Assembly (NCBI GenBank): GCA_947650285.1
Contig: CANTFL010000599.1
Span: 62,001-126,000 of the forward strand
Direction: 5' to 3'
Source of the DNA: Hyaloperonospora brassicae
Lineage: Eukaryota > Oomycota > Peronosporomycetes > Peronosporales > Peronosporaceae
Length of the DNA stretch: 64,000 bases
Within the stretch, counting starts at the first letter, position 1. Every line of letters begins with the position of its first letter. The notes beneath the pieces are model-generated. The model worked only from the letters and a program-made list of their open reading frames with translations, was not told where the DNA came from and did no database searches. The translations under genes were made by a program, and so were the position numbers. This document shows, piece by piece, positions 10,096-56,625 of the stretch.

Positions 10096-10192
10096 GGTGT
10101 TTCGTGTTTAGCAACCGCGAGGTTAAGCACACACACACACCGACCTCTTCGAGGAAAGAAGCCGATTGACGTTTTGTGGTAACGTCAGTCTG

Positions 10193-10878: not shown

Positions 10879-11050
10879 TTGTTTAATCGCGGCTTGTATT
10901 GTCCATCCACATTGGCATGGATTCGACGGCCTTCATGCACAGCTCACCGAATAGTTCCCTCAGTCCCAGTAGGTCGCGTCCTGCATGAGATGCCGCAATG
11001 AAATCAGCTTCCATGGTGCTTAAAGAGACACCATTCTGCTTCTTGCACGC

Positions 11051-11611: not shown

Positions 11612-11616
11612 AAAAA

Positions 11617-15169: not shown

Positions 15170-15173
15170 AACC
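15155..15173 (-). other. Copia primer-binding site of half-tRNA type, overlapping the gag start codon
   Basis: Read on the minus strand, the bases after the LTR are GGTTATGAGCCCAACGGAA. The complement, TGGGCTCATAACC, has the form of a Met tRNA anticodon loop, not a tRNA 3' end. Drosophila copia is known to prime with the 5' half of initiator tRNA-Met at a site starting GGTTATGGGCCC (established). The ATG in this site is also the likely gag start. Confidence 0.65.
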
Positions 15174-15492
15174 TGTAAGAATGTAGTGGTGCACTTGTTG
15201 CAAAGGGGTAGAAGTAAAAGTGAAATGTATTGTGTGTTAAAACCCATCTTCTTCAACACTACGATATTTATGACCAGAAACAGAAACTACAACTTGACCA
15301 TGTCAAGTTGCATATGACGTCCGTCTCTCTTCGTCCCATGTGTTGTCCTGTCACATGACGACCGTCTCTCCAGTCCCATCTGTCATTATGACACATTATA
15401 AACCAATCAAGTGAGGTCGGGCTTACCTGTACCAGGTCTTGTACTTGACCTGCAACACCTTCTTCACTTGTCAGAAAGAGTATATTCTAACA
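15174..15492 (-). repeat. Copia 5' LTR
   Basis: 319 bp, same ends as 2799-3117. It is followed by GTACG, the target duplication. Confidence 0.95.
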
Positions 15493-22142: not shown

Positions 22143-23627
22143 TTTTCACGGAGGTTGTGAACTGTTGTGCTGTGCTTCGTTGGGCAAAATGTGGAATGAC
22201 ATTGCAGTGGCAATTCACAAGAAGCAAGCGCGCCATGATACACGAAGACGAGAGCTAGCAACAGGACGAGGTATCTCCATACCAAACTACAAGCGTGCAA
22301 ATCAAGGAGCAGCGCAAACCGCGCGAGCGAACGTCCACAGCATGCAAACGTGTGCATGGATTCTTGTCCGCATATGGCACTTTTTACCACGCAAACGTGT
22401 GTATGGATTCTTGTCCGCACAGTACACTTTTAATCCAGCGTATTCGTACATCTTTGACAAGGGTCAGTACCGCAGTTTACACATGTCAAGCTCCTTTAGC
22501 TCCTATGGGCCACCTGTTGCTTACAAGTCTTATACTTTCCTTGTTGTATCTATCAAACCAGCGACATCGCCGCCTTTTCGTGGTGCTAATATTAGATGGT
22601 ATTACCACGCATGACCACGCATGACCCGATAAGACCATCAAGCACTCCGTACCACAACCCACACTCACGCCGTTCCTATATGCGACACTACAAACATGTA
22701 TGGAAGCAACGCGATCATAAGACTACAGCAGTGTAACACACGGTCATTATCACAAAGTTCGATAAAAAGGCGCGACCGAGCAAGCACCTGCTCCACCAGC
22801 AATCACCCTTCCACGCAGCTGTATCGTTGATAGCCTACGCGTGTCAGCTTGCCAAATCGACACAAGCCCTGCACATGCAAGAGGTTCGGCTTTATCGCAA
22901 AAGCCTTATCCCGACCGACGAGCGAGCTAGGACTGAGTCTGTGTGAGGTGAAAGCCGAGCTTCTCATTCATTCAGCTTCTGCGCGCATAGGATTGTACGT
23001 TGGCGCGTGTCTGTACGACATGCGTGACGCGTTTTGCATCCGTAGGGCGTGAAACACGAAAAGGAAGAGTTCGTGATCACTCTCCTTGCTCGGCGGTAGA
23101 GGAAGCTCCCCATCTCTCTTCCTCTTCCGATCGCACCGTATCGTCAGCCGCACGTGTTGTCGCACAGGTAAAATCAAGCTGTCGACTCTCTTGTCTATCA
23201 CTCTTTTCTAGGACGTAGTAGAAACACCAACGAGTTGCTTTGTCTCACAACAACCATCACGTCATCACTGTGGTTATAGCATGTCACAAGTATCATCTCG
23301 TCCTCCAGCCGTCTTAGCTGAAAAACCATCCGAAATGAGCACGTGAACATTCAACACTCGATTCCATTTTCTATACTGGATCATTGGGTCAAAGGAATAG
23401 AGCTCCAAGCTTGCTACTTTGTCGTCTATGCGGCTTCGAATTAGCTGGAACCGTTACAAGAAAGCGGGCGGCCGGGCGGAGGTGGGGGTAGAGTGGCGCT
23501 TGCAAGAGGAGGTCTGAATCACGTCATAATCAAACTAAATTGCGCTTACCTTATGATATCGAAGAAGGGAGTCGAAGCTTTCGACGTCCGACGTACCTCG
23601 TGGGCTATATGAAGTTTGGAATCTCAT
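22143..23627. other. Region without recognised genes; short tandem duplication
   Basis: A 29-bp unit beginning GCAAACGTGTG occurs twice, at 22344 and 22391 (47-bp spacing, one mismatch seen). Otherwise I see nothing I can name. The stretch ends where the inverted duplication begins at about 23628. Confidence 0.4.
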
Positions 23628-26600: not shown

Positions 26601-26730
26601 AGCCTTGATCGTTTCGGGATCACGACGTACGACGATCGTTCTCACGGTGCACCCAACACTTGGTATTTTGCTCGACACAAAAAATACACTTCTTTAGATT
26701 GTCGCAAACCTTATGCTTGCTCATAAGTTG
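23628..26730 (-). repeat. Left arm of a large inverted duplication
   Basis: Matches the reverse complement of about 53500-56625. Blocks at 24820-25152, 24222-24743 and 23629-23963 recur as 55091-55423, 55500-56021 and 56280-56625 on the other strand with few differences. The match stops sharply at about 23628 / 56625. The arm holds the start of gypsy B joined to the truncated RT of gypsy A. Confidence 0.9.
23629..24743 (-). pseudogene. Gypsy B gag remnant (left arm)
   Basis: Minus-strand frames show a gag N-terminal region (24743-24222) and a gag core with GPVRNWFTQLSRPTLRSWNDL, followed in a shifted frame by KHVEHFIWTLDDRDLDKQFSL. These are recognisable as the capsid of an oomycete gypsy family different from A, C and gypsy 1. 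Truncated at 23628. Confidence 0.7.
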
Positions 26731-27850
26731 AAGAACCTAACGAGCATGTGGTCTGTGAACCTTCACGTCCGTCTTTACATTGATAGCCCGTCTATGGACG
26801 AACACTTTGTCACGGTTATCTCGGTGCGAAATCCTGCACCGGTCTCAACCGATTTGTCACACATCTGTTGTATGTATCATGGGCGTTACTTATCCCATGT
26901 GGCATCACTAACTACTCCCACAGCATACCGCTTGTGGTGCTCACTGCTGTGTAAGGGATCTACCGTTTATGCGTGATGATCTGATAGAAGCCATCCATCA
27001 GTTCTATGGACGAGACAATGGTACTCTTTGACATACGATCGATGATTACGTCCTTCCCCGGTATCAGTGTCTGAGTCGGTACCCTTGCAGCATTCAATTT
27101 GTTGAATGAGTGCACTATACGCCATCCTGCTGTGGCCTTTTGCACACAGAAGGTCGGAGAGCTGTGAGGAGATGTTGATTCCTTAACATGATATGCCGCT
27201 AAGCGATCGGCAAAGATCTGGCCGATCGCTAGCAGCTTTTCACGAGGCAGTGGCCACCGCTACATGACACAGTACTTTGAGCCCGGTTTGAGCTCGATCT
27301 CGTGCCGAGTGCTTATGTCCTTAGGCAACTCGCAAGGTAAGGATTCAGGAAATACGTCCTTGAATTCAATCAAATCCTTATACAAAGGATTTGCCTGAAG
27401 TGACTCCCAGGATTGCGACGTGTATCGCTCAATCCAAGTCTTCTTATCGAGTACACTTTCGTCCATCGATGAGCTGCTGAGAACCCGTTCGTTCTCAGCA
27501 AATACTGTGGCCGACCGAATATCGGCCACATACTCATCCTCTGTGACGAGTATGCAGATCTGCTTGACTTTACCACTACGCAAGTCACGCAAGAACCGTT
27601 TCGGTTCTAGCGTTGGCAACTGAGTTATCTCCGAAGTTAACTTCGGAGGCACAATCAGATCAAGCGTATGAGCGTCTACGCTTGATCCGTCATTGACCAA
27701 GACGTTCAACATCTCGGTTACTTCCTGGGAACTTTCTTCCTCAGGTTGCTGAGGACCTGATCCCTGAGCATGTGACTCTTGAGTAATTACTTCCTCAAGT
27801 ACGTGGGGTCTTATTCCCTCGACGTCTTCTGACTGTGGCTGTGCAACCAC
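26466..27850 (-). pseudogene. Gypsy A reverse transcriptase, dead and truncated
   Basis: Linker and RT fingers are readable (ESLQANPLYKDLIEFKDVFP, then WRIVHSFNKLNAARVP, SSIELMDGFYQ). After ITHKR comes a stop shared with gypsy C and A'. The catalytic block reads RDKVFVH where FDDIFVH is expected, so the second catalytic Asp is lost. Near 26466 the similarity ends. Confidence 0.85.
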
Positions 27851-27867
27851 AGTCAGGTACCGATCAT

Positions 27868-28584
27868 CTACGGTCGACCCTCCAGTCGACCTAGGATATC
27901 CGTGTTGCCGCTTGTGGGCAACCGGTTTACTCTTGTTTGGATGTCGCCCGCTAGGCGTGCATCCACGTCCCGGTCCACTCGACTTATTCGAGTGGTGGAC
28001 CTTCGGCCCGCCCGTACTTCTGTACAGTCGCCGGGATCTTGCTCCACAGTGTAGTGATTAACTACACTGTGATCTTGTGCGGTCGTGCGAACGACCGAAC
28101 CGCAAGTGAGGCCATCGCACTCACTCGCAGAACATCCACACGCTTGTGGACGCTCCGAGATGTTCATTAGATGGCCATCTGATGTGAAAGCGGCAGGCAT
28201 CTTCACGGATCGATGCTGCCAGCTCACCCTTGGTAATCCCAGGACGACATCAAATTTGTCATCCAGATCCAGTGCGATGAAGTCATCATCGTACTGTTCG
28301 CCCTCCAACGTGTAGTGGATTCCTACTACACGTTTCTCAACGGTAATCGATACGCCTGTTGCAAGGCGCACCGTAATTCTCGTGAGAGGGATGTCGCGCT
28401 CAAAGAACTTGAGCCTACGACCCTCTAGTGACTGGCGACGAAAAAAGTTGTTCGACGCCCCACAGTCTACTAGGGCACGAAGCGACAAATCATTTGTCGC
28501 TTCCAACTTCAAGGTGATGAGCGAAACGTCATCACCAGGTGCAGAGACACACAATGATTGTGTATCTGGAGCAAATTTCGTCAA
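27868..28584 (-). pseudogene. Gypsy A aspartic protease
   Basis: A frame of 238 codons with ALVDCGASNNF in the place of the retropepsin D-S/T-G motif (DCGA, a known variant in such elements) and a downstream DVVLGLP block. The plus strand of this coding region holds several hairpins shared with gypsy C. Confidence 0.8.
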
Positions 28585-29794
28585 GAGATTTGCAAATTCT
28601 CTTTAGGTTACTAGACCAGTCGGCCGCTCCGCCCATACTGAGCCCGACCATTTTTTGATGGTCTGCTTTTATGTTGCGGTTTTGCAACACGTTAAACCTA
28701 CACCTTTTGCTTTTTTGGAAAATAGACGACCATTTCGCTTGGTCCTGTATAGTACTGGGCGAGTGGCACTGCACTCGTAAGTGTAGTGTCCCAACTTCTG
28801 GCAGCGATTGCAATTCTGCAATCGCTTGTTGTTTAAAGAGTGAGGTCTCTTGCTCTCAACATAAAAGAGGTCCATTGGTTCTGGACCTATGGTCTCTTGT
28901 CGTCTCGGTGGACGATAAGTGCTCGAGCTAGCATGAGCCTGTACCATACTAAAGACTTCCCGTTCCGCTGCTGAAAAACATCTTCTAGATTGTTTATCAC
29001 TAGGCAGAACAGGTGATTCCGGACGGGTTTCTCTGAGAGCCCTTACATGAAAACAGTAATCAACATGTGTTCATGTACAGAATTAGCAGTTATATAACTC
29101 GAAAGGAGTCGTATCTGCTGAGCATAAGTTTTACATCACGCTTTTCCTGCTTAAGTTACAGGACCTCTGATCGAGCTCTAAACTTATACATTGGCGGCTC
29201 AAAAGTTTACCTGAGCCGGGTTTTGAAGGATTTGAGCGACTCAAAAGCATATGGGTCTCTCATCTCTAGCCCTAAGGCCGAAGTCTTGGCACGTCCCGTC
29301 TAATGGGATTAAGCAAATGTTAATTAGATTTTCTCATCGTCGATACGACGTGCCTTTATGGCTCTGTCGATTTCGACGAACCGTAACAGCAAGGAGTATT
29401 CCTCGACTCCTCTATACTTAAAGATATCACACAGCAGAATTAAATTGCTGCTGTCTCAGCAGCTCAGTCAGTTGAGCATCGAGTTTTCTTAACTGCTCAG
29501 CGTGTTGAGAGCCTTGCTGGTGAATCAAAGATACTTTCTCTCGTTCAGAGCCAAATTAATGTTGAATGAAGCTGGCGATGGCTGCATGTTGTTGGTCTAC
29601 GCTAAGAGATTCCAAAATAGCGATAACGCCAATATCGCCCACGGTAGAGCTCATTCGCCCTACCGCGGCGCATTCGAGGCGAATCAAAAGAGCGAAGCCT
29701 TTACGTGTGACGTAAAAGCTATCGCCCTAATCCATCATGTTCATGTTGGATGAGGTAAGTGTGGTCGCTAGACAGACAACGAAGTCCTACCATG

Positions 29795-30240
29795 TGTAAC
29801 GGGGCACGCCTTGTGTCAATTCGACACAACGTTGTGTGCATTCGCCGTTACGTTTACGTGGCGTGCGAAAGCGCAGCGAAGTAGGAAGAACTCAAAAACT
29901 ATGTCCAAGGAAAAAAGTAGAACTGTATTTAACATGGTTATGTTTCTTAATAAACCATCTTTTGTCTTCAGCTAACTATATTAAAGTACAATTTCCTATG
30001 TGGATCTATTGCTCACCACCCAGTGCGCACGTCCAGCAGCGATACGTGATTTATCTGGTTGATGTACCGTGAACATCAACCATCAGGTGGAGCAACCCAT
30101 AAAATAGATATAACCCTCGGGGGTTATATTCCTTCAATCTTACTCCTTAAGAGTAATGTTAATTGAACAATATCAAAAAAGATAATGTTCAAAATTAATA
30201 CAAAGATATCAATTTTTATGTAACGGATCACCCCGTGACA
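29795..30240 (-). repeat. Gypsy A 5' LTR
   Basis: 446 bp; plus-strand ends are TGTAACGGGG and CCCCGTGACA, a terminal inverted repeat. Internal hairpins include TTGTGTC/GACACAA and GGTTGATG/CATCAACC. Similar to 47821-48286. Confidence 0.85.
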
Positions 30241-34212: not shown

Positions 34213-36573
34213 ATCAGCGACAATGGGGGCCGTGTCCTAGAAGATTGTGCTAAATGCGAGGCCTTCCACCCACATGTCACCAAACAGTGCCACAGCTTCT
34301 TCGTCATTTTTATCAGTGGATAATTTTTCGAGAGCTAGGACACCTTTTGTACTTTGAATAACACCGTTCGCTATGAGTGCAGAAGCTACGCTGCGTTGTC
34401 CCTGACAAAGGCCTCGCACCAGCTGTAAGACCTTCAACGACAGCTGCAGCGACCATGCGTTGCCCTCTTTGAAAATCAACACTTCTACGTTTTCAATGTT
34501 ACGCTGCTATATCAATCACAACATTCACGCATTTGGGCTGAGTTCGTGAGCTGCACCCGTAGAATGGCGAGCTACCGTGGTCAGAATCTCCAGCAGTTTT
34601 GCTGCGGGCTTTGGCTCGGCAGCCCAATCGTCTCGAGAATGTAGCATAGCCGAGTTCCTAGATCTATGTTTAAAAGAGCTTGGACCTATCCAGCGCTGCG
34701 ATATCCTTGTCGCTGATGCTCTATCCATCGTCATCCTCGCTTGTGTCAATGTACACCACCTCTTCAGCGTCATATGAGTCATAGCCCTCGTTGTTCGTTT
34801 GAGCGCCATGTCCGTTGCGGTGGAGGTGAACGCTTGGCGGCAGTACAACGGTACCATGCATGAGCTCAGGACACAAGCGCTTGTCAAGAAGACAATCGTC
34901 AGTTTCCACAGGAACGACAAACGCACGAAGGGCAGACACAGCAGCACCTAGCGCCGTATAGTTCTGGTCGTCCAGCACAATTCGAAGGGTCATTGTGATG
35001 TCACGAGGGAACGTTCGTGTACAAGAGGACAAGAAGCGTTTGCCAGCAACTGTCGTCGATGTAATATTTTAGCCACGACTTGGAGTGCCATGGACCGCTG
35101 GCTCGCCACATTTCTACGTGCGAGGTGCAACATGTAACGGAGCACTGTTGTTGACTACCTACTGGTTGACCAGTACGGAGTATACTTCCACTGACGACAG
35201 TGGTCGACAGTGCCCTGCTAGGTGTTCTAAGGAAACACAGAGGAAGGAAAGGAGACTAAGTAGTCAGACTAGTCTCTTGGTAAAAGTAAAACTGTATAAA
35301 TATAATGAAGTCCTACAACTCCTTGAATCTCTGTTGTCCTGACTTAATTATACTAATATAACTAAATGTATGATGACGTCCACTCACCACCCATTGCGCG
35401 CGTCTAGCAGCGATTGGTGGGTTGACATCATCACGATATCAACCAATGAGTAGACCCTTCGGTCATCTCAACAATATCGCCATGTCTGTGATATTGCTAA
35501 AAGAATATTCGACGTAATATTCTTTATTGTCAAATTGTTTTTAGGACAATTTCATGTAACGGGATACCCCGTTACACAACAGCTCCGGTACAGTGTACCC
35601 CGCAGCTTCTGGGTCGTCGCCGTGGTGGAACAAACCGGAATGCATGGACAACTCGGCGTCCGTCGCTTCGAGCAGGTTCCCGTCCAAGTAAAGCGCTCGA
35701 GCGTCGCGTCGCGTCTACAAAGCAACGCGCTTGATGCTGTCCACTCTGTCTTCTGTTTTTGATCGTCCCGCTCTGGCGCTGCGTCCATTCGAGCTTCACA
35801 CGCTCTTCCAGTGGCAAGAGCTCGACTTGCGCCTGGAGCTCCCCGTCCGTCTTGACTGCTGCCAGCTGTTGCATCATGTGCGTCGTGCCCATCTCCCGTG
35901 TCACGCCTTCCTCCCCATCTCCTCCATCTTTTTCATCTGCTGCTTCTCCTTTTTCTTCTTCTGTCAACACACGCGCGCGCTCGGTCGAGTGAATGCTCGC
36001 TCTGGCTTCCACAGTTTGGCGTCGACTCCGCAGTTTGGCAATCAGTTGCGCGTCCAGCGTCTGCACGCGCTCTTGCTGCGCTTCCTGTACCTCCTGCGCG
36101 CTCATGTCCCGCACGCGCGCGCGGTTCATCGCGTCAATTGCGCGCATTTCCTCCGTGTCAGACGTCTTTTTGTCCGCATGCTGCTGCGCTGCGCGCCGTC
36201 GCCGCCCAAAACGAGAGGTTTTCGTACGACCACGACGATCGTCCTTCTTGTCCCCTAGCCCCTGCCGTCGAGCGGCACTTGGAAACCCCAGTGGATTTTT
36301 TGGATTTGACCCACGGAGCACCAACCGCTCGTTAAGACCCACCAATACCGTCGCGTGGCGCTCCACGACATTCTTCAGCACATGACTAGCGCCGTGTCCA
36401 GGCGCGGGATCCACGAGCTCTGGATTCAGGTGCCCGCCTGATGCTCGCTCAGGCGCACTGCCACATCGTGTGACGGTTTCCGACGGACGCTTCCGCTGCT
36501 GAAGGAAGTGTCCTTGTTCGCGCCCGAGCTGCGCCAACTCGGCGTTCTTGTCGATACTCGATGTCGTTGTCAT
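34213..36573 (-). pseudogene. RPAP1: RPAP1 pseudogene (RNA polymerase II-associated protein 1), split by a solo LTR and truncated
   Basis: RPAP1 helps assemble and import RNA polymerase II. The start is taken as Met 36573. The N-terminal domain is clear (INAMN-like AIDAMNRARVRDMSAQEVQEAQ... then LIAKLRSR). Two frameshifts follow (about 35760-35785 and 35685-35700) before the RPAP1 C-domain motif YLDGNLLEA...HSGLFHHGDDPEAAGYTV. A solo LTR then interrupts the reading; beyond it coding resumes (HLARRNVASQRSMALQVVAK), shifts frame near 35040 (LRIVLDDQNYTALGAAVSAL) and again near 34700. At 34213 it ends against an LTR fragment, far short of the family's usual 1200-1400 residues. The C-terminal half is not in the window. 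Confidence 0.88.
35133..35576. repeat. Solo gypsy LTR (444 bp) inserted in RPAP1
   Basis: Starts TGTAACGGAG, ends CCCCGTTACA and is flanked on both sides by CAACA (35128-35132, 35577-35581), a perfect 5-bp target duplication. No internal region is present, so it arose by LTR-LTR recombination. AAAGAATATT/AATATTCTTT and other hairpins link it to gypsy C. Confidence 0.93.
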
Positions 36574-39304: not shown

Positions 39305-39613
39305 TAACAAGCGTAATTTCTGTCGAGGAGTCTCTGTGCAGGCCCATCGATGAACGCGTTGGCTGAGGGTTTTAGTTAAGATCTCGCGCATTCGCGCAAG
39401 GTGCTAACATTAGTAAACGCTTTTGTGTCACAACAGTCTCGGCTTTCAATTGCAGTGTATGATGATACTGATTGTTGTAACAAACTAATGCAGCCGCTAC
39501 CTCAATGAGATAATCACCACTTAAAATGACAAAACAGTCGTCGTACAAGATGTGGTAGTCGGCAGCGATCGCGTTGCCTGCGAAGTAGATTGCGTGACTG
39601 GACGAGGGTTTTG
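39305..39613. other. Spacer between effector candidate and gypsy C
   Basis: 309 bp without recognised features. It probably contains the 3' end of the effector transcript. Confidence 0.4.
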
Positions 39614-40005
39614 TGTAACGGGGCACACCCTTGCTTGAACTTAACGCAAGGGTTTTGGTGCCCCGACAGACGTACACGAGGCAAACGAGGAAGCGTAGAT
39701 AAGGTAAAAGTAAAACTGTTATATTAATATAATAAAGTCTTTAACCACTGTCTCTCTGTTTGACTTAACTAAATTATGCTGATATAACTGAGTGTATGGT
39801 GGCGTGTACTCACCACTCATTGCGCACGTCTTGCGGCGATTGGTGGATTGATATCGTCAAGATATCAACCAATGAACAGACTCTTTGGTCGACTGATCAA
39901 TATCACCACTATTGGTGATATTGTTAAAAGAATATTCAACGTAATATTCTTTATTGTCATTATCTCTCAAATGACGATTTCGATGTAACGGGCTGCCCCG
40001 TTACA
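39614..40005 (-). repeat. Gypsy C 3' LTR
   Basis: Ends TGTAACGGGG / CCCCGTTACA. Contains two perfect 10-bp-stem hairpins at 39899-39922 and 39927-39952. Confidence 0.93.
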
Positions 40006-40138
40006 TCACCCCCCTTACCTGATAGTCACCGTGTGACTATCAAAAATATGGCGGCCACCCGTTGGGCACCATTGGGACAAGGAGCACTTGTTGGGTCCGT
40101 TCCATTCACTTTCCACCCGACCTCGCATAGTTAACATG

Positions 40139-41735
40139 TCTATGCGGGGGGACTCAAGACACGCACAGCCCGCTGCTGTGCCAGCCTCTGCGGCAGACGA
40201 TTCGTCATCTGCTGCTCGTTCTCCGCCTGCAGCAACAGGTGCCGCAGATGCACGAGGTATCACACCGCGTGCGCATGATGACCCTGACATAGAGGTCATA
40301 TATTCTGGCGGGTCAGACGTGTCTGACTCGGAAAAGCCTTTTGAGGCATCGCGTTTACCTGCGGTGCCTCATTTATCCACAACACTGCCGGACGTACGGA
40401 CTCGTGACATGCGTCACAGTCTGTTCGGCAGTGATGATGAGTCTGATGATGAGTATGATTGCTCATCACCGCGATCAGATCGTGATCCTTCGCACGAGCG
40501 ACTTGACGATGGTGCATGCCATCTTCATACTGACAACCGTGGTACCGACAAAGTACTACTGCGAAGAGTGATGAGCTGAAGCCGTGGCATTTGCCTGAAC
40601 GGCTCATCAATGGCTTGTCTCACGAGACAAGCCAACACCATCGAATACCCTTATTCGATGCGAGTGAGCTTCACGGCTTGGATCCCAGCACGAGTAACTT
40701 TCGCGCTGAGGGAGAATTTTATCTCGATGTCTCCTTAGACATCGATGGTACAACGGAAACCAAAAACGTGACAAGGCCTCGCTTTTTGCTGCGCGGAACG
40801 CGTTCGTCCAAACCGTAAAGAATTTTGGACGAGAAGGGTGGGTCAAGAAACCTGAGGCAGTACGCCTCAGGTTCGAAAAGCGAACGCCCACCGGTGCCAG
40901 GTACCGGTTGCATCGTTTATTAAGTGAGACCGGCATTCCATGCCTCACTTAGGGAGACCCTTGTTCGAGTTGTGCTGACAACTCGCAACGTGCGCAGAGG
41001 GATGTGTACTCCCTAAGTTCGCCCTGGGGAAGGGCACACTTCTCGAGTGAGATGCGGGACGCGATTGCAAATTTTTAATCCGTCTACAAGCGCCAAAAGC
41101 GCGTGTTTACCGATGGGCCCCAGGACCAATCGGATGAGTCTCGTCATACTGGTGGACGAGATCAGGCACATCCATCATCAGCTGGGAGCGGGGCTCCCAG
41201 CTGTTCCAAGAAGATGGATACCTCCGCCACTGGACGAGGTAGCTCGTCCTTGATCCTGAATCTTCACGGTGGTTCTTAATACGATCCACTAGAAAGCGTT
41301 GACCACCGTGAGAATCCACCAAAGGATGAGGTGGAGGAGGAAAGACCTCCTCCAGATGATTCGACTCACCATCTCGAACCTTACGAGATGGATCGCGCAA
41401 TCGATGAATTGCGCGATGACTTGAAGCACGAGCGCGACCGGCGCTACGCTTTGACTGATACCGGGCGGAAGAACCGCAAGGATCACGAGGCTGATCGGGC
41501 GAGGGATCGCGCCGATTATGCCACGGCGCAGCTCCAGGTCGAGCGGGATGTTCGTTCCCTATTCGGCGAGATGGCGACAGCTCGCGGGAAGATATATCGG
41601 TTGACTTCCGAGGTATCTTATCTGCGCGACCAGACGGATCGTCTGGAGCGCGAACGAAATAACTTGATGGATGTTCTTGAACGTGGGGGCTATCTTCATC
41701 GGAAGAAGAAGGCTCGTACCGACAGTACGGTCTGA
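40139..41735 (+). pseudogene. Antisense reading frame of gypsy C, decayed
   Basis: Opposite to the element's gag-pol, three frames follow each other: 40139-40579 (acidic, Ser/Asp-rich, with a DDESDDEYD run), 40591-40818 (SNFRAEGEFYLDVSLDIDG ... RPRFLLRG), continuing in another frame to about 40948 (FGREGWVKKPEAVRLRFEKR), and 41331-41735 (a 134-codon charged coiled coil with long runs of Arg, Glu and Asp ending HRKKKARTDSTV). Frame changes suggest a decayed protein of about 450-500 residues. The last part overlaps the sense linker before the chromodomain. Position and orientation match the antisense frame of gypsy 1. Confidence 0.45.
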
Positions 41736-42339
41736 GTCGCCCTACGAAAAACGCAGGATGCGTGCGTATCCTACGTGGCAATTCGAGTGTGTATGCATTG
41801 CCCTTGCGATGCAACACACGAAATGGCCCAATGTATTTCGGCAGTAGTTTACTATCGTTGATACTAGTGACCGCATGTCCAGGTAAGTTTACTGTTGACA
41901 GTAGTACTAGGTCATTAACTCTAAATGAAAGAACATTTGCTCTTCCATTCTTGTCTGCGTTCCGTTTCTGAAGGTCCACCGCATTTGCGATGGAGTCCTG
42001 AACGAAACGGACTACCGCCTCTCGAGTCAGCAGGAAGTTCTCTGCTGACTCTTTGTTTTGTCTTTCAGTGCGCTTCGTGCGCACTGCTAAGAGATTGCGC
42101 TCTTCTTCAGCGAGGTTGTCTTCTTCCTCGCTGGAATAATCGTTGACGATGCTGAATATACCAGAATTGTCTTCATCATCCGATCCAATAATAGCGTCGC
42201 CGCTATCATTGAGGTGATCCTTTTCATCGATGTCGACCTGATCGACATCGGCATCATACGTGACGACGTTAGCGTCGACACGTGATGAGCAAGAGCCAAA
42301 CCGGTTTTTGCTCGAGCGAGTCCCTCCCCCCTTATACAA
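41107..42339 (-). pseudogene. Gypsy C integrase C-terminus and chromodomain
   Basis: A 410-codon frame with LLPKYIGPFRVLHRKGNAYTL and RTHPAFFVGRLRPY (integrase tail), a long Ser/Pro/Arg linker, and a chromodomain (RFLVDRI...YLVQWRRYPSSWNSWEP). The acidic N-terminal part of the frame is out of phase with the integrase core upstream. Confidence 0.85.
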
Positions 42340-42896
42340 GAGTCACACTCTAGAAGGGCGGGCACACGTGGATGGCGTAAACCATTTACGTAAAACGGTG
42401 TGTGCTGTGTTGAAGCGTGCACCAAATTATTGATGGCGAATTCCACCATGGGTAGGAATTCGCTCCAACTCGGAAACGAGTGGACATATCCTCGAAGGAT
42501 CTCTTCTAGGCCACGGTTCGCGCGTTCCGTCTGACTATCTTTTTCGGGATGGTCGGAAGTGGACATCTTCAATCGTGTTCCGAGAGAACTAAACACGGTT
42601 TGCCAAAATGCCGCCGTGAACCGAGGGTCACGGTCGAATACGAGTTCAAGGGGTAACCCGTGGAGTCTAAAGACCGTGTCTAGAAAGACACGAGCACAAC
42701 CTTGAGCCTTGATCGACTCAGGGACAGCAGCAAGATGCACCATCTTGCTGAACCGGTCAACAAACACAAGAATACCATTATTCTTGTGAGCGTCTTCGGG
42801 AAAACCGAAGACGAAGTCCATTGAAACGGACTGCCAGCACTCTGCCGGGAACGGTAGAGACTGTAATGGTGCACGGGATGAAGGACTGAGCTTCAA
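42087..42896 (-). pseudogene. Gypsy C integrase catalytic core
   Basis: The triad is visible in SMDFVFGFP, VFDRDPRFT and SQTERANR. A frameshift lies near 42300. Confidence 0.88.
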
Positions 42897-42956
42897 CCGT
42901 TGACAAACCTCGCAAGCACGTATGTACTTGCGAACAAACTGATACTGGCGTGGCCA

Positions 42957-44055
42957 TTAAAAGTCACGACTCACCGTGTGGTAAGTCTTTTCTCTACCAC
43001 GATGGCCGCTTGTTGGGGCATCGTGACACTCGTACATGATGCATAAACGCAAATCGTTATGAGTGGGGACGACGACACGAGGAGTGACGCCGGCAACAGC
43101 TGTATAATACAGAAACCCGTTGCGTTTCGCATACCGATCCTCATCGGATCGGTACAAAGCCGGTAAATCTTTCAATGATTTACTGGATGGATTCGACAGA
43201 TGATCCATTAATCGCAGAAGATCCTTTTCTATCCGCGTATGCCTTTTGTATGTCGTCAAGGAAGCTTGACGACGGGACACTGACTGACAGTGTCGCAACA
43301 GTGGGCGTATCCACTATGTTGTATTGTGCGTCCGGCTCGAAATCGGGCCGGCGCGAAAGCGCATCAGCGACGACGTTTAGTCGTCCTGGTTTATACTCCA
43401 CAAGGAAGTTATACTCCGCGAAGAAAGACAGCCACCTCGCCATTCTTTCCGAGAAGTGTGGGCTGTTTACGGTCGTGCGTAGTGACGCATGGTCCGTATA
43501 GACAACAAACGGTCTATCTCCGAGGAGATAGACCCGAAACTTAGCCAGTGCGTACTTCATGGCAAGGAGTTCCTTGTCATGCACTGGGTAATTGCGCTTA
43601 GCTGCCTGCAACTGACGCGACTGATAACAGATGACGCGCTCCGCGCCATCTACGTCGAACTGCATTAACGCACAGCCGATTGAAAAATCGCTGGCTTCAC
43701 AGACCACATGAAACGGTCTTTCCTGATCTGCAATCGCCAAGATCGGCGACTGCATCAAGCTTTGCTTGATACCTTCAAAGGAACGCTGGCACTCAGCGTT
43801 CCATGACCACTTGACATTTTTCTTAAGCAAGCAAGAAAGATGTACCGTCATCTCGGCGTAGTTGCGCGAGTACTTGTGCAAGTACGCCGATAGCCCAAGA
43901 AACTTCCTTAGTCCATTGAAATCGAATGGCACTGGCCAGTCGGTGATCGCCTTGATCTTTTCGGGATCAGGGCGTACACCGTGTTTACCCACGATGCACC
44001 CAAGAAGTGGTATTTCGATAGCCGCGAATATACACTTCTTGAGGTTGGCATACAA
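42957..44055 (-). pseudogene. Gypsy C RT thumb, RNase H and integrase zinc region
   Basis: The 291-codon frame 44055-43180 starts at YANLKKCIFAA (RT thumb) and contains RNase H, where VVCEASDFSIG has Glu in place of the first catalytic Asp. After a frameshift, 43298-42957 gives the zinc region (CHDAPTSGHRGREKTYH) and stops. The plus strand is a nearly continuous hairpin series (43252-43385 and around). Confidence 0.87.
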
Positions 44056-44305
44056 CTCTTACTTGCTCATAAGTTGAAGAACCTAACGAGCATGTGGTCT
44101 GTGAACCTTCACGTCCGTCTTTACATTGATAGCCCGTCTATGGACGAACACTTTGTCACGGTTATCTCGGTACGAAATCCTGCACCGGTCTCAACCGATT
44201 TGTCACACATCTGTTGTATGTATCATGGGCGTTACTTATCCCATGTGGCATCACTGGCTACTCCCACAGCATACCGCTTGTGGTGCTCACTGCTGTGTAC
44301 GGGAT

Positions 44306-45952
44306 CTACCGTTTATGCGTGATGATCTGATAGAAGCCATCCATCAGTTCTATGGACGAGACAATGGTACTCTTTGACATACGATCGATGATTACGTCCT
44401 TCCTCGGTACCGGTGTCTGAGTCGGTACCCTTGCAGCATTCAATTTGTTGAATGAGTGCACTATACGCCATCCTGCTGTGGCCTTTTTCACACAGAAGGT
44501 CGGAGAGCTGTGAGGAGATGTTGATTCCCTAACATGACATGCCGCTAAGCGATCGGTAAAGAACTTGTGGATCGCTAGTACTTGTTCACGAGGCAGTGGC
44601 CACTGCTTCATGACACAGTACTTCGAGCCCGGTTTGAGCTTGATCTCGTGCCGAGTGCTTTTGTCCTTAGGCAACTCGCAAGGTACGGATTCAGGGAACA
44701 CATCCTTAAATTCGATCAAATCCTTATACAAAGGATTTGCCTGAAGTGACTCCCAGGATTGAGACGTGTATCGCTCAATCCGAGTCTTCTCATCAAGTAC
44801 ACTTTCGTCCATCGATGAGCTGCTGAGAACCCGGTAGTTCTCAGCAAATACTGTTGCCGACCGAATATCGGCCACATACTCATCCTCTGTGACGAGTATG
44901 CAGACCTGCTTGAATTTGCCACTACGCAGATCACGCAATAATCGTTTCGGTTCTAGCGTTGGCGATTGAGTTATCTCCGAAGTAAACTTCGGGGGCACAA
45001 TCAGATAAAGTGTATAAGCGCCTACACTTGATCCGTCATTAACCAAGACGTTCAACGTCTCGGTTACTTCCTGGGAACTTCTTTCCACAGGTTGCCGAAG
45101 GCCTAATCCTTCAGCAAGTGACTCTTGAGGAATTCCTTCCTCAAGTACGTGGGGACTTATTCTCTCGACGTCTTCTGACTGTGGCTGTGCAACCACAGTC
45201 AGGGACCGATCCTCTACGGTCGACCCTCCAGTCGACCTAGGATTTCCATGTTGCCCCTTGGGGGCAACAGGTTTCTTTCTTCTAAGATGCTGCCCGCTAG
45301 GCATGCATCCATGTCCCGGTCCACTCGACTTATTCGAGTGGTGGACCTTCGGAGCAGCCTGTACTTCTGTACAGCCGCCGGGAGCTTGCTCCACAGTGTA
45401 GTGATCAACTACACTGTGATCTTGTGCAGTCGTGCGAACGACCGTACCGCAAGTGAGGCCATCGCACTCACTCGCAGAACGTCCACACGCTTGTGGACGC
45501 TCCAAGATGTTCATCAGATGGCCATCTGATGAACAAGCTGCAGGCATCTTCACGGATCGATGCTGCCAGCTCACCCTTGCCTCGTACCGTCTCAGCCAAG
45601 GTAATCCCAGGATGACATCAAATTTTTCATCCAGATCTAGTACGATGAAGTCATCATCGTACTGTTCGCCCTCCAACGTGTTGTGGATTCCTACTACACG
45701 TTTCTCAACAGTTATCGATGCGCCTGTTGCAAGGCGCACCCTCATCCTTGTGAGGGGAATGTCGCGCTCAACGAACTTGAGCCTACGACCCTCTAGTGAC
45801 TGGCGACGAACAAAGTTGTTCGACGCCTCACAGTCTACTAGGGCACGAAGCGACAAATCATTTGTCGCTTCCAGCTTCAAGGTGATGAGCGAAACGTCAT
45901 CACCAGGTGCAGAGACACACAATGATTGTGTATCTGGAGCAACTTTCGTCAA
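44306..45952 (-). pseudogene. Gypsy C protease and N-terminal RT
   Basis: A 548-codon frame. The protease block reads ALVDCEASNNF, with Glu instead of the Gly seen in gypsy A, so it is probably inactive; ILGLPWLRRYE follows. RT fingers run to FYQIITHKR and a stop shared with A and A'. Between 44306 and 44055 the catalytic block again reads RDKVFVH. A dense hairpin series lies at 45124-45534. Confidence 0.87.
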
Positions 45953-46002
45953 GAGATTTGCAAATTCTCTTGAGGTGGCTGGATCAGTAGGGCGCTCCGC
46001 CC

Positions 46003-47095
46003 CTACTGACCCCGACCAATTTTTGATGGTCGGTCTCGCTGTTGCGGCTTCGCAACAGCGCTGGACCCACGCCCATTGCCCTTTCTGGCAAAAGGTCGTC
46101 CATTTCGCTCAGTACTGTTTGGTTTTGGGCGTGGAGCACTACACTCGTATGCGTAGTGCCCTAACTTATGACAGCGCTTGCACTTCTGCAATCTCTTGTT
46201 GTTTAAAGAACGAGGTCTGTCGCTCTCAACATAACAGAGGTCCATTGGTTTGGACCTCCCGTTTCTTGTCGTCTCGGTGGACGATATGAGCTTGGGCTAG
46301 CATGAGCCTGTCTCATGCTAAAGTACTACTGTTACGCTACTAAGATAGCATCTTCAAGCGTATCCAACTCTAGACGGAACGTGCGATTTCGGACGGGCCC
46401 CTCAGCTAGCCCATGCATGAACACAGTAATCAACGTGTGTTCATTTACCGGGTTCGTAGTTATACTTTTCGCAAGGAGTCGTATATGCTGGGCGTAAGAG
46501 TGCACGTCGCGCTTACCCTGATTGAGCTTCAGAATCTCCGATCAAGCTCTGAACTCTGCTCTTGGCGGCTGAAACGTACATTTGAGCCGAGTTTTGAAGG
46601 ATTTGAGCGACTCAAAAGCATATGGGTCGCTCATCTTTAGCCCCAAGGCCCAAGTATTGGCACGTCCCGCCAATTGGGTTTGAGCAAATGTAATTTCATT
46701 TGATTATTGTCGATACGACATGCCTTTATGGCTCTGTCTAGTTCAACAAACCACAAAAATAGATATTCTTCCTCGGCTCCTCTGTACTTGGAGATGCCAA
46801 TCTTCCAGATTTCGGGACGACGAGTGTGTGTCGTCCCACCCACAGCAGCATTGAATTGCTGCTGTCTCAACAGCTCTTGATGTTAAGCACTGAGTCGTCT
46901 TAACTGCTTGGCCTGTTGAGAGCATTGCTGGTAAAGTAAGGCTACTTTCTCTCTTTCGGCGACAAGTTCATTTTGAATGAACCTAGCTATAGCGGCATGT
47001 AGTTGGTCCCTGTCACAATACTCCAACATGGCGCTAATGGCGAACTCGCCTACGGTAGAACTCATTCGTTCTACCGCACCCCCATTCGATGTCAC
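46003..47095 (-). pseudogene. Gypsy C gag, in several frames
   Basis: N-terminal helix region (47095-46883, AISAMLEYCDRDQLHAAIARF), capsid start (46870-46637, ISKYRGAEEEYLFLWFVELD), a decayed middle, and the nucleocapsid (46245-46003) with CKRCHKLGHYAYEC. Confidence 0.83.
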
Positions 47096-47200
47096 TCAAA
47101 TGGATAAAACCTTCACGCGTGGCGTGAAATGTTTCTTCGTCATCCAACATGTTCATGTTGGATGCTGTGGTCCTTGGAAGGACTACAAAGTGCTACCAGG

Positions 47201-47591
47201 TATAACGGGGCACACCCTTGCGTGAACTTAACGCAAGGGTATCGTACTCCGACAGACGTACACGTGGCAAGCGAGGAAGCGTAGGTAGGGTAAAAGTAAA
47301 ACTGTTATATTAATATAATAAAGTCTTTAACCACTGTCTCTCTGTTTGCCTAAACTAGATTATGCTAATATAACTGAATGTATGACGAAGTCTATTCATA
47401 ACTCATTGCGCGCGTCTTGCGGCGATTGGTGGATTGATATCGTCAAGATATCAACCAATGAACAGACTCTTTGGTCGACTGATCAATATCACCACTATTG
47501 GTGATATTGTTAAAAGAATATTCAACATAATATTCTTTATTTTCATTATCTTATAAATGACAATTTCCTTGTAACGGGCTGCTTCGTTAAA
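47201..47591 (-). repeat. Gypsy C 5' LTR
   Basis: Plus-strand ends TATAACGGGG (mutated) and CTTCGTTAAA (mutated). The internal hairpins are kept. Confidence 0.9.
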
Positions 47592-50571: not shown

Positions 50572-51560
50572 ATGCTATCCTCAAGGGATAGGGACCGACA
50601 GCATGTCGTCATTAGCAAGTTCTTGCAACGAGAACTTGATGAGTCACGAGCGCAGGTGAAATTGTTGCAACAACGAACCCCCAGCAGACTGAAACCCTTA
50701 GACAACAACAGTCTCAGTCCGCAGAGTCGACGCGTCATAGTTGACGGAAAGCTCTTAAGCTTGATATATTTGTGTACCGGGGAGCCGAGAACGACTCTCA
50801 GTCAAGATAATTTGTCAAGGTAGACGGTGCCATCGAGACCCGTCGCCGCATTGACGATAAGCAAATGCAAGTCTCATTTTCTCAGTCATACTTGGCAAGG
50901 AACGCCAGGTAATGGGTTCTAAACTTCAACGTGCACGACTCACACGTGTTTGGGTCGTTAAGGATTTTTAAGACCCTACTCAGAGAAACGTTTGGACCGC
51001 CAAGGGCAGAGTTAAGCACTCTATCAGAGCTTCTGCAACTCACACAGGGTAAGCGTCAGGTTCATCCTTACGCCCTATATGTAGGCTACCTTGCAAATCG
51101 AAATGTAGCGAACTCTATGAGTGAATTTGAGTTTAGCACAATATTCATCTTAAGACTTGAAGATTTCCCCGTCAGGGACCAACTGTTCCGCGGAGACCTG
51201 AAGATGCTTTCAGAAGTAATCTAAGCTGATGATCATGAAGCTTTAGTGTGGGACAGGCTCACACTACGTTGAACCCTTATCGTCCATATGGACGACCAGC
51301 AGCCGGACGTCCAGAGCGAAGGAATCTTTGTCATCTTGAAAGCGAGAGACCTCTCCCTGCGTGCGGCAAGCAATTTCTGAGATGCCATTGCTGTCACAAG
51401 CTAGGACACTACGCAAATGAATGCTGTGGTTCCCGCTCAGAACCTCGTAGTGCAGAGCGCAGTGACCGTCGACGAGCCCGGAGAAATGGAGGAAGAGGTC
51501 CGAAGCCGTTGCAAAGCCGAAACAGCGAAGCGGACAATTGAAAAATGGACGGGTTCATTA
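50572..51560 (+). pseudogene. Gypsy A' gag
   Basis: Pieces in several frames: FGSLRIFKTLLRETFGPPRAEL and QLFRGDLKML (50931-51224), then a knuckle CHCCHKLGHYANEC (51248-51541). Confidence 0.75.
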
Positions 51561-51599
51561 AGAGCGGAGCGCCCTACTGATCCAGCAAAATCGAGAGAC

Positions 51600-52440
51600 T
51601 TTGCAGATTTCTTAAACAACCTTTCTTTAGACACACAATCGTTGTGCGCCTCTGCACCTATTGATGAGAAATAAATCATCAACTTGACTTGGAAATGACG
51701 AAGGACTTGTCACTTCGCGCCATATTTAATTGTGGTGCGTCAAACAATTTTATTTGGTTAAAAGTCAGTAGAGGCTAAAATACTCAACTATGTTGAGCGG
51801 GAGACCTTTTTACGAGAATGACGGTACACCTAGTTACAGGCACATCAATCAATGTAAAGAAAGGTGTAGTCGAAATCCACCACACGTTAGATGGCAAACT
51901 TTATGATGATGATTTTACCGTACTGGATCTGGATGATACCTTTTATGTTATCCTATGATTGCCTAAATTCATAAAAGATACTAGCCGAGGGTGAATAGTC
52001 AGAATCGATTTGTCGAGGTGCCAGAAACTTGTTCATCAGATAGTCATTTAATGAACGTTTAGGAGCGCTTTAAAGCGTGTGGGTGTCTTACGAGTGAGGG
52101 TAATGACCTTACTTGCGGTACGGTCGTTCGGAAGACTGCACAAGACCTCAGTGTAGCTGATCATAACACTGTGGATCAAGCTCTCGGCAGCTGTACAAAT
52201 TTACAGGCAGCGCTAAATGCCTACCCTTCGAGTAAGTCGATTAGAAAGGAACATAAATGCATGACTAGTGGGCATCACCCTAGGGAAAACAATCGGGTTG
52301 CACAGAGACGGAAACGCGATCATCCTGGTTCGGCAAGACAATCGACCTTAGAGGATAGTTACCTAAATGTATTTGCACTGCCAAAGTTAAAAGACATCGA
52401 GGAGAGTAAGCTCTCACGTGCTTGAAAAAGAATTTCTCAA
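51600..52440 (+). pseudogene. Gypsy A' protease region, strongly decayed
   Basis: LSLDTQSLCASAP, LEMTKDLSLRAIFNCGASNNF (the active-site Asp appears as Asn) and HTLDGKLYDDDFTVLDLDD correspond to the A/C protease. Many stops and indels. Confidence 0.65.
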
Positions 52441-52479
52441 AAATTTCTTGCTGAGAGATTAGGCGCTCAGCAACCTGAA

Positions 52480-53779
52480 CGGAGAAGCCCTGATTAGCCT
52501 TTAAAAATTAGTTTCCAGGAAGAAACCGAGACGTTGAACTTCTTGGCCAACGCCGAATCAAGCTTGGGCGCTTATGCGCTTGATCTGATTGCGCCTCCTT
52601 ATTTAACTCTGGAGATAAATCAATCGACAACGCTGAAACCAAAACATTTCTTGCGCGATCAACGTAGTGGCGAGATCAAGCAGATCTGTGTACTCGTCAC
52701 ATAGGATGAGTATGTAGCCGATATTCGGTCGGAAATCGTGTTCACTGAGTATGAACGGGTTACCAGCAGTTCATAGATGGAAGAAAGTTTACTCGATGAG
52801 AAGACTCGGATTGAACGATACACGCCTCAATCCTGGGAGTCACTTCAGGCAAATCCTTTGTATAAGGATTTGATCGAATTTAAGGATGTGTTCCCTGAAT
52901 CCGTACCTTTCGAGTTGCCTAAGGACAAAAGCACTCGGCACGAGATCGAGCTCAAACCGGGCTCAAAGTACTGTGTCATGTAGCGGTGGCCACTGCCTCG
53001 TGAAAAGCTGCTAGCGATCGGCCAGTTCTTTGCCGATCGCTTAGCGGCATGTCATGTTAGGGAATCAACATCTCCTCACAGCTCTCCGACCTTCTGTGTG
53101 AAAAAGGCCACAGCAGGATGGCGTATAGTGCACTCATTCAACAAATTGAATGCTGCAAGGGTACCGACTCAGACACCGGTACCGAGGAAGGACGTAATCA
53201 TCGATCGTATGTCAAAGAGTACCATTGTCTCGTCCATAGAACTGATGGATGGCTTCTATCAAATCATCACGCATAAACGGTAGATCCCTTACACAGCAGT
53301 GAGCACCACAAGCGGTATGCTGTGGGAGTAGTTAGCGATGCCACATGGGATAAGTAACGCCCATGATACATACAACAGATGTGTGACAAATCGGTTGAGA
53401 CCGGTGCAGGATTTCGCACCGAGATAACCGTGACAAAGTGTTCGTCCATAGACGGGCTATCAATGTAAAGACGGACGTGAAGGTTCACAGACCACATGCT
53501 CGTTAGGTTCTTCAACTTATGAGCAAGCAAGAGTTGTATGCCAACCTCAAGAAGTGTATATTCGCGGCTATCGAAATACCCCTTGTTGAGTGCACCGTGA
53601 GAACGATCGTCGGACGCCGTGATCCCGAAACGGTCAAGGCTGTTACCGACTGGTCACTACCTTGTAGATGTGAAGAAGCTTTAGAAGCTTCTTGGTTTTT
53701 AGTGTACTTGCAGAAGTATTTGCTCAAGCGTCTGTCGTCTTGCATCGACCTTCTGTATAATAAAGGCAAGTTAAAATAA
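52480..53779 (+). pseudogene. Gypsy A' reverse transcriptase, dead and truncated
   Basis: 52777-52983 gives ESLQANPLYKDLIEFKDVFP; 53098-53283 gives WRIVHSFNKLN...ITHKR and the shared TAG; 53519-53779 gives YANLKKCIFAAIEIP. The 87-codon opposite-strand frame over 53267-53530 encodes the same peptide as 26713-26976 in gypsy A. Confidence 0.83.
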
Positions 53780-56625
53780 CAACATTGAGGCTTTCGCTTT
53801 TCCGATTCCGGTTGAGCCCACATCGCGTATCCCGTTTTCATTCTACACTCGACTGTGGTAAAGTGATCACGAGATGTAATCGTTGCGTTGGAAGTGAGAT
53901 ACAGCAGATAGAAGGCGTCTTTTAACTCCGATAAATATTTTAATTATAAGAATTTGAGCTGAAATGGGTGGCTCTCGATATTGATTCGAATTGATGGTCT
54001 CGATTCAATCTCTCGATCTCGATCTGTTGTGTACACGATCCCTTGGTATTGATCTTATCCCTCGATCTCGATCTGTTGTACACAAGTCGGCTATAGGCCA
54101 CACTAATGTTTCAGAGAAAATACACGTAGTGTAAACCACATAGGTACAAGGGGGCGACCTCCTGGAAAAGTGACACGTGGCTTTAGAAGTCGTGTAACGG
54201 ATAGGTCTATCGATCTGTTACTTCTTTGAATTTGACAGGTCAACATTAAACAGAGTCAATTGTGCTTTGAAGTACTTTGTCGCTTTCTATTATGGGTTGA
54301 ATCATTGGCCACCCGACGTCAAGAAAGCTGCATACTTTAATCAAGTTGTATCCCTGGATTGTTTGGCCAGGGATCAATGAACGTCAACATAAACCCAACT
54401 GCCATCGGGCGCTACTAGCACGAAATATAAGGTGCAAGATCGCGAGACGACTCATGGGGTCAAAAGGCTCGCAAATCAAGTAGCTACGTTAGACAAGGCG
54501 ATCTCGTAGAGATCAAGGTAACGAATATCAAGCACCTTACAAGTACATTCGCTATCGTGTGAAGGTTATCACGAGCCAGCACCAATCCTAACCACGGTTA
54601 AGCTTGGCATCGACTCAGGTCCCCCTGGGAGTGTGCAATCCGCTTCACCTACAGATATACAAGGTGAGCAAAGCATATAACACGGAATCGGAGTACCCCC
54701 TCCATTAGTCGGTCGTCCGAGTGAAAGTGGAGAATTAGAATCGACTATTCAAAATAGCGATCACTACTCGTGCACAATGATGCGTGTGTCCGTATCTTCT
54801 GTAAACTTGGTATTTTTACCGTGCTTCTCTTGAAGAGAAAGCTAAATTAAAGACTGAATCTGGGATTGAAGCGTCCGAGGCATAGGAATCGCCGAAGACG
54901 CGCGAAATGAACAAATCCCCGACTTCTCAGAGTTTTGGAAGGGCACAGATACTACAAAAGTAATAAAGGAAGATCGCTCGATCGATCTGGAAGATTTGCC
55001 TCGACATTATCTTGAAGTCTCTTTGATGAACAAAGAGGATCGTGCTGTAAAGCATTATTCTCAAGGTACAAAATTTTCTGTCAAAACCGATCAAAATCCA
55101 TCGAAGACCACTCTTGTGATACCAAAGAAGAAAGAGGCCAAGATGGCAAGGACATTAAAAGCAGCGTAGGATCTTGACCAACGTGATCGCGCCAATGAAA
55201 GTCGATGATCGGTCGGCCAAAAAATGTGGAAGAAGAGGAGACAATGGAAAGGTGGCAATTGGACCTTTTCGACAGAGGGGTAATATTGGAAGGTTCTCAA
55301 GACGTTGCTGACAAGCAACCCGGTGATACACATATTTAAGCCCAGGATGATCGAAAAGATTTGAGGCCCGATCTCAGAACCAGCGACAGCATCATAGACG
55401 CTGTTACGGATTAACGGAATCACCCAACTGTGACGGGTGCAGGATTAAGTCATGGGGGGTTTTAACGCGAAGAAGTTACTGGCTTGTTTGCAAGATTAGG
55501 TGACTAAGGCGTATAGATTACGATATGAAGAGATGTTTCCGTTAAAGGATGAATTTAAAAACGAAGATCAAGCGCTTTCGGCAAACGCAGATACCTCGGA
55601 CATCTCGTTGAGAGCCGACTACGAGCGCGCATATCAATATTTTCTGGCGGTCGCAGATGCCCCAAGAGGCAACCATACTGAATCATCGCAGTATGCATAC
55701 GCCAATTCAGAGATTAAATCAGATATATTGATCGGTTTTTATCTGATGGCGCATGGCCCCAAATGGGGTAACTCGTCTGCGAAATTGCGTTGTGAGGGCC
55801 AAGGACGATTCGAGCTCGGCAGCTGCATGGACCGAAGAAGATGTAAGCCCGAAGATACCAGGACCACTACAGATGTATGCCAAAGCTGCCATGAGACCTT
55901 ATCATTAAGAGCAACGTTAACAAGCTCGCCAAGTAGTCTATTTAAGTCAGACTGTGAGACGTTTGAGGAAGCAGGAGATATGTATTACGGATGTCGAGAT
56001 GGAATCGGTCGGATCGCGTAAATACAGATCGGACCCATATTACCCTAAAGGAGGAGATCCAGAAGACATCTAGCAAGACTATCTTAGACGGCCACAGGTA
56101 TCATATACGGAAACAGCACCCGATGATGAACTTACCGCTCCAAGGATTTGGATGTCTGCGATTGCGCAGCTAAAGCAATTTAACAAAAAAACAGGTATAA
56201 AGTTTGGAACAGGAGCTGAATCAGCAAGGTCAAGCCCGCATGGCTGAGCCACCGAGACCCAGATGAAGAAAAGTGCCTAGTGGTCGATGTTTTTCTCACG
56301 GGCCCCGTACGAAACTGGTTTACCCAGCTGAGCCGACCTACTCTTCGCTCATGGAACGACCTTCTAGACATATTTTTCGTACCATATGGAGGCAATGGAA
56401 TGTCGGTAGGAAGTCGTTATTACTATGCAAAGAAGCGAATAAAGGAAAGCCATTGGGATGTCAGTATCGTATGAATGTCGCGGTGATAGGAGCAATTATA
56501 CGAATTCTAGACGAATCGCGGGATGTACGTCAAAAACATGTGGAACACTACATTTGGACACTTGATGATCGCAATCTGGATAAGCAATTCTCTTTGCAAG
56601 GATTAAATGACGCAGATGAGAATTG
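53500..56625 (+). repeat. Right arm of the large inverted duplication
   Basis: Reverse-complement match of about 23628-26730. Similarity ends at about 56625, after which gypsy B continues on this side only. Confidence 0.9.
55500..56625 (+). pseudogene. Gypsy B gag
   Basis: A 173-codon frame (55500-56021) followed by the gag core (56280-56474, GPVRNWFTQLSRPTLRSW) and, frame-shifted, KHVEHYIWTLDDRNLDKQFSL. Same as the left arm. 56626-57495 continues gypsy B as unreadable linker sequence. Confidence 0.72.

Follow-up and report, generated by a model that had tools for sequence, protein, structure and literature searches.

A retrotransposon family of Hyaloperonospora brassicae built as a chain of short perfect hairpins

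A hairpin-rich chromodomain retrotransposon and its neighbours

The stretch of Hyaloperonospora brassicae DNA analysed here, 64,000 nucleotides long and referred to below as the window, contains a Ty3/gypsy LTR retrotransposon with a chromodomain, named copy C (Table 1). Its two LTRs enclose successive minus-strand frames that match PF08284 (RVP_2), PF17917/PF17919 (RNase H), PF00665 (integrase core) and PF00385 (chromodomain), so that both the LTR pair and the order protease, RT-RNase H, integrase, chromodomain are those of this class of elements. Pfam gave no call for the RT core in the broken frames of C; in copies L036 and L013 of the same family, the RT core aligns to a related gypsy. The LTR opens with its own perfect 9-bp hairpin (39984-40005), and its start, TGTAACGGGG, recurs inverted at the LTR end. 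This terminal repeat is longer than the few bases usual for the terminal inverted repeat of an LTR. On the plus strand, a 289-codon open frame (45420-46289) runs antisense to the hairpin-rich part that codes for protease and linker.

Two decayed relatives of C, copies A and T, are carried by a large inverted duplication (23622-28959 and 51237-56621, about 22 kb apart), whose arms are 88.5% identical over 5.4 kb, one 2.5-kb part reaching 98%. An apparent solo LTR of the same family (35279-35576) adjoins an RPAP1-like gene frame; it shares with the LTR of C 79% identity and some leading hairpins. Positions 2796-15492 of the window are likely occupied by a nested pair of elements. The inner gypsy has frames at 4624-8823 and flanking repeats at 3138-3613 and 10203-10678 (98% identical), and the enclosing copia has frames at 11503-14754 and flanking repeats at 2796-3117 and 15171-15492 (98.8%). 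A search of positions 26000-56700 against Rfam returned 0 matches at gathering score.

Table 1. Elements of the hairpin family in the window and the features of copy C discussed in the text
Feature	Position	Strand	Observation
Copy C, Ty3/gypsy-type element with chromodomain, LTR to LTR	39613-47589	-	Pfam domain matches; stem density by region
3' LTR of C	39613-40005	-	393 nt, non-coding; 5 perfect stems
5' LTR of C	47200-47589	-	91% identical to 3' LTR; 5 perfect stems
Open frame: protease, linker, RT start	44306-46108	-	densest part, 15.0 stems per kb
Hairpin train	45124-45535	-	arms 9, 10, 7, 9, 8, 6, (5), 11, 5, 6, 8, 14
Perfect 28-bp palindrome	45508-45535	-	self-match in all 40 scored genomic train copies
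9-bp hairpin with inverted loop, template-switch footprint	43132-43154	-	5-nt loop exactly reverse-complemented relative to other copies
Copy A, partly decayed relative	26522-29819	-	84% identical to C; folding excess 27.8%
Copy T, more decayed relative	50988-53727	+	78% identical to C; folding excess 7.5%

Perfect stems were defined by an arm of at least 7 and a loop of at most 10 bases. The eight 1-kb bins between 40001 and 48000 hold 7-17 such stems each, against 0.3-0.7 in dinucleotide shuffles; most bins of the window outside retroelements hold 0-2. By region, copy C carries 6-15 perfect stems per kb (0.3-0.9 in shuffles): 12.7 and 12.8 in the LTRs, 9.1 in 40006-42956, 5.9 in 42957-44305, 9.2 in the gag part and a maximum in the protease-linker-RT frame (Table 1). 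The stems span LTRs and coding parts and go far beyond the needs of the protein. Only stems with loops below about 16 nt are in excess, most of all those with loops of 4-5 nt. Hairpin spans peak at 20, 23 and 26 nt around a median of 24 nt. Direct repeats show no excess comparable to that of stems.

The original prediction had described a train of twelve stems in some 410 bp of the protease-RT linker. All twelve are found where it placed them, with a difference of at most 1 bp at either end. A non-overlapping stem scan gave 11 of them, and the twelfth, GGAGC at 45381-45392, which has one base in common with its neighbour, was read directly. What had been taken for a 26-bp near-continuous palindrome (45509-45534) is present and in fact forms a perfect palindrome of 28 bp with 14-bp arms; of the 40 train copies scored in the genome, 39 give a self-match of 100% and one a self-match of 96%. 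Recurrence of the stems in copy A was also borne out, as 10 of the 12 are found there, whole, extended or shortened. The 1-kb bin 45001-46000 contains 17 perfect stems versus 0.7 ± 0.7 in 15 dinucleotide shuffles, and the train region folds far better than its controls both as RNA of the coding strand (z = -11.2) and as DNA of the plus strand (z = -10.7). However, hairpins are not specific to the linker: it belongs to the densest part, but the whole element is rich in them, including both non-coding LTRs.

Codon controls, folding and distribution in the genome

We permuted codons while keeping the protein and its codon usage. In the open frame of L036, 51 stems were counted versus 2.2 after permutation (z 37), and three further copies behaved alike (L012, 52 versus 2.6; L011, 53 versus 2.6; L013, 37 versus 2.2). 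The stems thus vanish in synonymous-codon shuffles of the same protein, the comparison by which the original prediction could have failed. Five loci of other families had 1-5 stems against 1.5-2.4 in permutations, and at two loci of the closest other gypsy group perfect stems were not above codon permutations. The codon register in which first positions pair with second positions is avoided (10 of 54 and 6 of 40 stems, compared with about 0.3 in permutations). Such avoidance would follow if the stems arose for the most part through synonymous changes.

Folding excess was calculated over dinucleotide shuffles in 350-nt windows. In the little-decayed copies its mean reached 49.8% for the sense and 52.6% for the antisense strand of L036, 51.5% for L004 and 40.2% for L013, and it was 28.7% and 28.4% for the decayed copies L034 and C. 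Nine of nine 350-nt windows were positive in each of L036, L013 and L004 (28-64%), as were all 22 of copy C (11-50%). The family thus folds beyond sequence-order controls across its genome. Four gypsy relatives without perfect hairpin chains (L017, L031, L033 and L071) showed an excess of 9.1-13.1%, equal on the two strands of L031, where both were tested. The gypsy at 4624-8823 of the window, also without such a chain, gave 11.2%. Eleven other loci ranged from -1.7 to 6.7%, copia loci showing little, and two host genes and two flanks from -0.2 to 2.0%.

In the same genome (100.6 Mb), at least 40 full-length matches to the train were scored, out of 1679 candidates, on many contigs. At 32 loci of the hairpin family we counted 1550 perfect stems in 106,560 nt, that is 14.55 per kb with a minimum of 8.8, as compared with 153 stems in 175,894 nt (0.87 per kb, maximum 2.4) at 51 other loci. 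The latter came from RT-type searches and comprise another gypsy group, copia groups and loci with an RT-like motif. The 32-locus count leaves out the more diverged members L084-L091, which have 4.7-8.7 stems per kb; L092-L095 entered an alignment and lie outside the density scoring. About one quarter of the bases of the family are within stems, and among the loci examined the stem chain is specific to it. In the RNase H frame, the family shares 57-62% identity with its nearest other gypsy group. Protein relatives occur in Peronospora matthiolae, P. effusa, P. farinosa and other oomycetes; no relatives were found among viral contigs and prokaryote genome contigs. Stem density drops as copies decay, the less decayed ones having more stems: in the compared pieces it is 16.0 per kb in L036, 9.5 in C, 7.0 in A (26089-29250) and 2.8 in T (50988-54153).

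Changes inside and outside the stems

DNA identity between the lineages of L036 and L013 is 88.5%, and their RT and RNase H proteins are nearly identical. Between them, four-fold sites have changed at 19 of 163 positions in stems (11.7%), 48 of 242 in spacers (19.8%) and 15 of 46 in loops (32.6%). Hairpin arms are thus the most conserved part and loops the least (stem versus spacer, p=0.03; stem versus loop, p=0.001; loop versus spacer, p=0.08).

We then separated variants found in several copies, called shared, from those seen in a single copy, called private and assumed to have arisen mostly after insertion. Where the partner of a stem site is non-synonymous, shared synonymous transitions amount to 43/449 (0.096) versus 142/758 (0.187) outside stems (p=1.5e-5). 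Private synonymous variants do not differ, with 0.168-0.180 in stems and 0.179 elsewhere. The same distinction holds for the stem bases lost: shared changes cost -1154, about four times less than when placed at random (-4417 ± 228), while the cost of private changes (-1328 versus -1560 ± 139) is near random. Synonymous sites in stems are therefore about half as changeable between lineages, a deficit that single-copy changes do not show, from which it is likely that the single-stranded intermediates of copying must fold. Other counts temper this interpretation. Stem pairs that are synonymous on both sides show no significant deficit of shared changes (13/101 versus 142/758, p=0.17; shared-to-private ratio, p=1), which counts against selection since selection for pairing should act there too. 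A strong constraint even at these pairs had at one stage been considered; we dropped it, as the stems had been defined on one copy, whose own minority letters bias the count and the filtered result is not significant. At non-synonymous sites, shared changes are equally frequent inside and outside stems (0.037 in both). Private changes there are less frequent in stems (168/1392 versus 352/2241, p=0.0025), so that the private class is an imperfect neutral control. No consistent asymmetry was apparent in the base composition of 5' arms.

Of the stem pairs, fractions of 0.896 and 0.915 still pair in the other lineage; for random non-stem pairs the values are 0.79 and 0.78. Changes on both sides that keep the pair were compared with random and slid pairs. 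They numbered 16 in a first comparison (random 5.5 ± 2.2, maximum of 200 draws 11) and 13 in a second (7.3 ± 2.6, maximum 16); a third gave 69 versus 43 ± 13 cells (maximum 94), about two standard deviations up. Paired substitutions thus exceed the controls only moderately, which counts against the selection reading. Between A and C, where paired substitutions had been proposed as a check, only 3 of 266 pairs of the stems of C and 2 of 248 of those of A have changed in this way, and some of these pairs lie where the beginning of the piece is poorly aligned. Both copies are decayed, which obscures any paired substitution between them; the moderate excess is seen between the less decayed lineages.

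Folding of the sense RNA alone is expected to favour G-U pairs. Shared one-sided synonymous transitions in stems show no such preference (19 towards G-U, 18 towards A-C), and private ones number 44 and 52. Interior mismatches of stems of at least 8 pairs are similarly distributed, with 6 G-U and 6 A-C in L036, 6 and 10 in L013, and 5 and 7 in L004. At stem ends, a lean to G-U is seen among the mismatches of C (26 versus 15 A-C, p=0.12) and L004 (15 versus 8, p=0.21), and not in L036 (9 versus 13) or L013 (7 versus 9). When shared variants are divided by region, G-U and A-C number 9 and 5 in the linker alignment, and 18 and 34, and 20 and 19, in the other two regions. The A-C excess of one region (34 versus 18, p=0.036) was set aside, being unrepeated in the other two (19 versus 20; 5 versus 9). 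A strand-specific, wobble-tolerant structure is thus not what we found: the two strands fold equally, without G-U preference in shared variants or interior mismatches. This fits either pairing in both complementary strands or copying from arm to arm.

Origin and maintenance of the hairpin chain

The observations can be read in several ways. Chance, low complexity or an assembly artefact is refuted by the 40 scored copies on many contigs and by codon, dinucleotide and other-family controls that stay at background, and we give it practically no weight. A stem chain sized to small RNAs, such that siRNAs from the element would fold on themselves and fail as guides, could account for the median span and its peaks. 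However, three-base spacing of the peaks is expected, by reasoning, from rigid codon-position pairs at stem ends; as the peaks track these codon-position limits, we put this very improbable explanation aside. Selection could also act only on the fold of the sense RNA, for shielding, packaging or blocking of small-RNA access, in parallel to RNA viruses that have genome-scale ordered RNA structure (GORS). This is consistent with a sense folding excess near 50%, with the z-score of the train and with stem divergence below that of loops. The G-U leans at the stem ends of C and L004 and in the linker shared variants point the same way, none being significant where tested. We nevertheless consider it unlikely, because the antisense strand folds equally well (52.6 versus 49.8%) and because shared synonymous changes, two of the three regions and interior mismatches show no G-U excess. 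The genome RNA folding put forward in the original prediction is thus supported by the folding excess and weakened, in its sense-only form, by the missing wobble preference.

Template switching during reverse transcription, in which the growing strand would fold back and copy one arm into the other, making and repairing perfect stems without any benefit to the element, the stems then being kept by coding constraint, is possible, if on balance doubtful. Strict Watson-Crick pairing and strand symmetry follow from it directly, the stem excess declines for loops beyond about 16 nt, and coupling to the protein would explain the clear constraint at half-synonymous pairs. That RNA hairpins arise and persist through template switching has been proposed (PMC8794818), and loop inversions caused by it have been described at coding inverted repeats in yeast genes (PMC8604942). 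The hairpin of C listed as a footprint in Table 1, with unchanged stems and an exact inversion of its 5-nt loop, is the sole such case in 22,872 heavily redundant pairwise loop comparisons; the process likely acts in this family at least occasionally. Among 52 stem-improving or pair-swapping events of the main group, 3 are swaps (2 of them confined to one copy) and 5 improve two pairs at once, but the remaining 44 are single-base gains. Arm copying should also change pairs synonymous on both sides as doubles at a roughly neutral rate. Only 1 shared double was found at free pairs versus 6.6 expected (P=0.01), a soft result, since adding three doubles of L013, the sole copy of its lineage there, gives 4 versus 6.6 (P=0.21). 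Where a stem carries two unpaired changes in one lineage, they fall in one arm four times and in both arms four times. Loops tend to change faster than spacers, and a related gypsy group with a similar RT (57-62%, RNase H frame) lacks such stems. These points speak somewhat against template switching as the main cause, and it is a serious contender.

We tentatively favour, as a plausible reading somewhat short of probable, that selection maintains the stems so that both single-stranded intermediates, genomic RNA and the predicted first-strand cDNA, can fold. The whole retrotransposon is a chain of perfect short hairpins, with a new one beginning roughly every 40 bases, and the fold, overlaid on the protein code, would be retained by selection. 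A G-U pair in the RNA turns to A-C in the cDNA, so that only Watson-Crick pairs would fold in both strands, which would explain the absent wobble preference. The purpose of such a fold may be to compact or shield the intermediate. Against selection, a constraint of two-fold strength looks small beside an enrichment of this size. The originally proposed pressure on the nucleic acid is supported by the codon permutations, the reduced synonymous change and the decay trend, although the pattern is not specific to the linker. In its boldest form, this reading makes the stems a second, strand-symmetric code over the protein code and the element a bead chain in RNA and cDNA, possibly the first genome-scale ordered cDNA structure; we consider this possible, though less likely than not.

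Genome-wide folding has been discussed for RNA viruses (PMC7642675). According to the passages of that paper on GORS, these viruses likewise form many successive stem-loops over the whole coding genome with folding energy beyond shuffles, the excess being 15% in SARS-CoV-2, 7-11% in HCV and up to 24% in a deltacoronavirus. The paper also reports that variants observed a single time do not distinguish paired from unpaired sites, whereas recurrent variation prefers unpaired ones, and synonymous sites behave alike here. In contrast to those RNA viruses, our element is a retrotransposon with an excess of about 50%; the shuffling method differs. With that difference of method, the related gypsies lie within the range of structured RNA viruses and the hairpin family far beyond it. 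Moreover, its stems are strictly Watson-Crick, strand-symmetric and individually conserved between lineages, whereas GORS is described as indifferent to which bases pair (PMC7642675). Template-switch hairpins share with the family perfect inverted repeats, paired changes and, in one case here, a loop inversion, but the accounts in PMC8794818 and PMC8604942 concern isolated events, in rRNA, microRNA and yeast genes, not an element with about a quarter of its bases in stems. Ty3, also of the Ty3/gypsy type, has a folded genomic RNA mapped by SHAPE; the structural account in PMC11381356 presents a well-folded core and 5' palindromes for dimerisation, and describes no genome-long chain of perfect hairpins. 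The matches listed from the open-licence literature included no LTR retrotransposon with comparable genome-wide folding.

Given the 9-13% folding excess of related gypsies, the hairpin family would be the extreme of a lineage-wide tendency. Its example also calls for caution, as synonymous sites of transposons are not necessarily neutral clocks. With at least 40 scored copies, many more unscored candidates, all states of decay and, in the same genome, gypsy kin that lack the perfect stems, the family constitutes a natural experiment on the gain, upkeep and loss of structure. It could show whether pairing is selected for or produced by template switching, whose role in compensatory change is debated.
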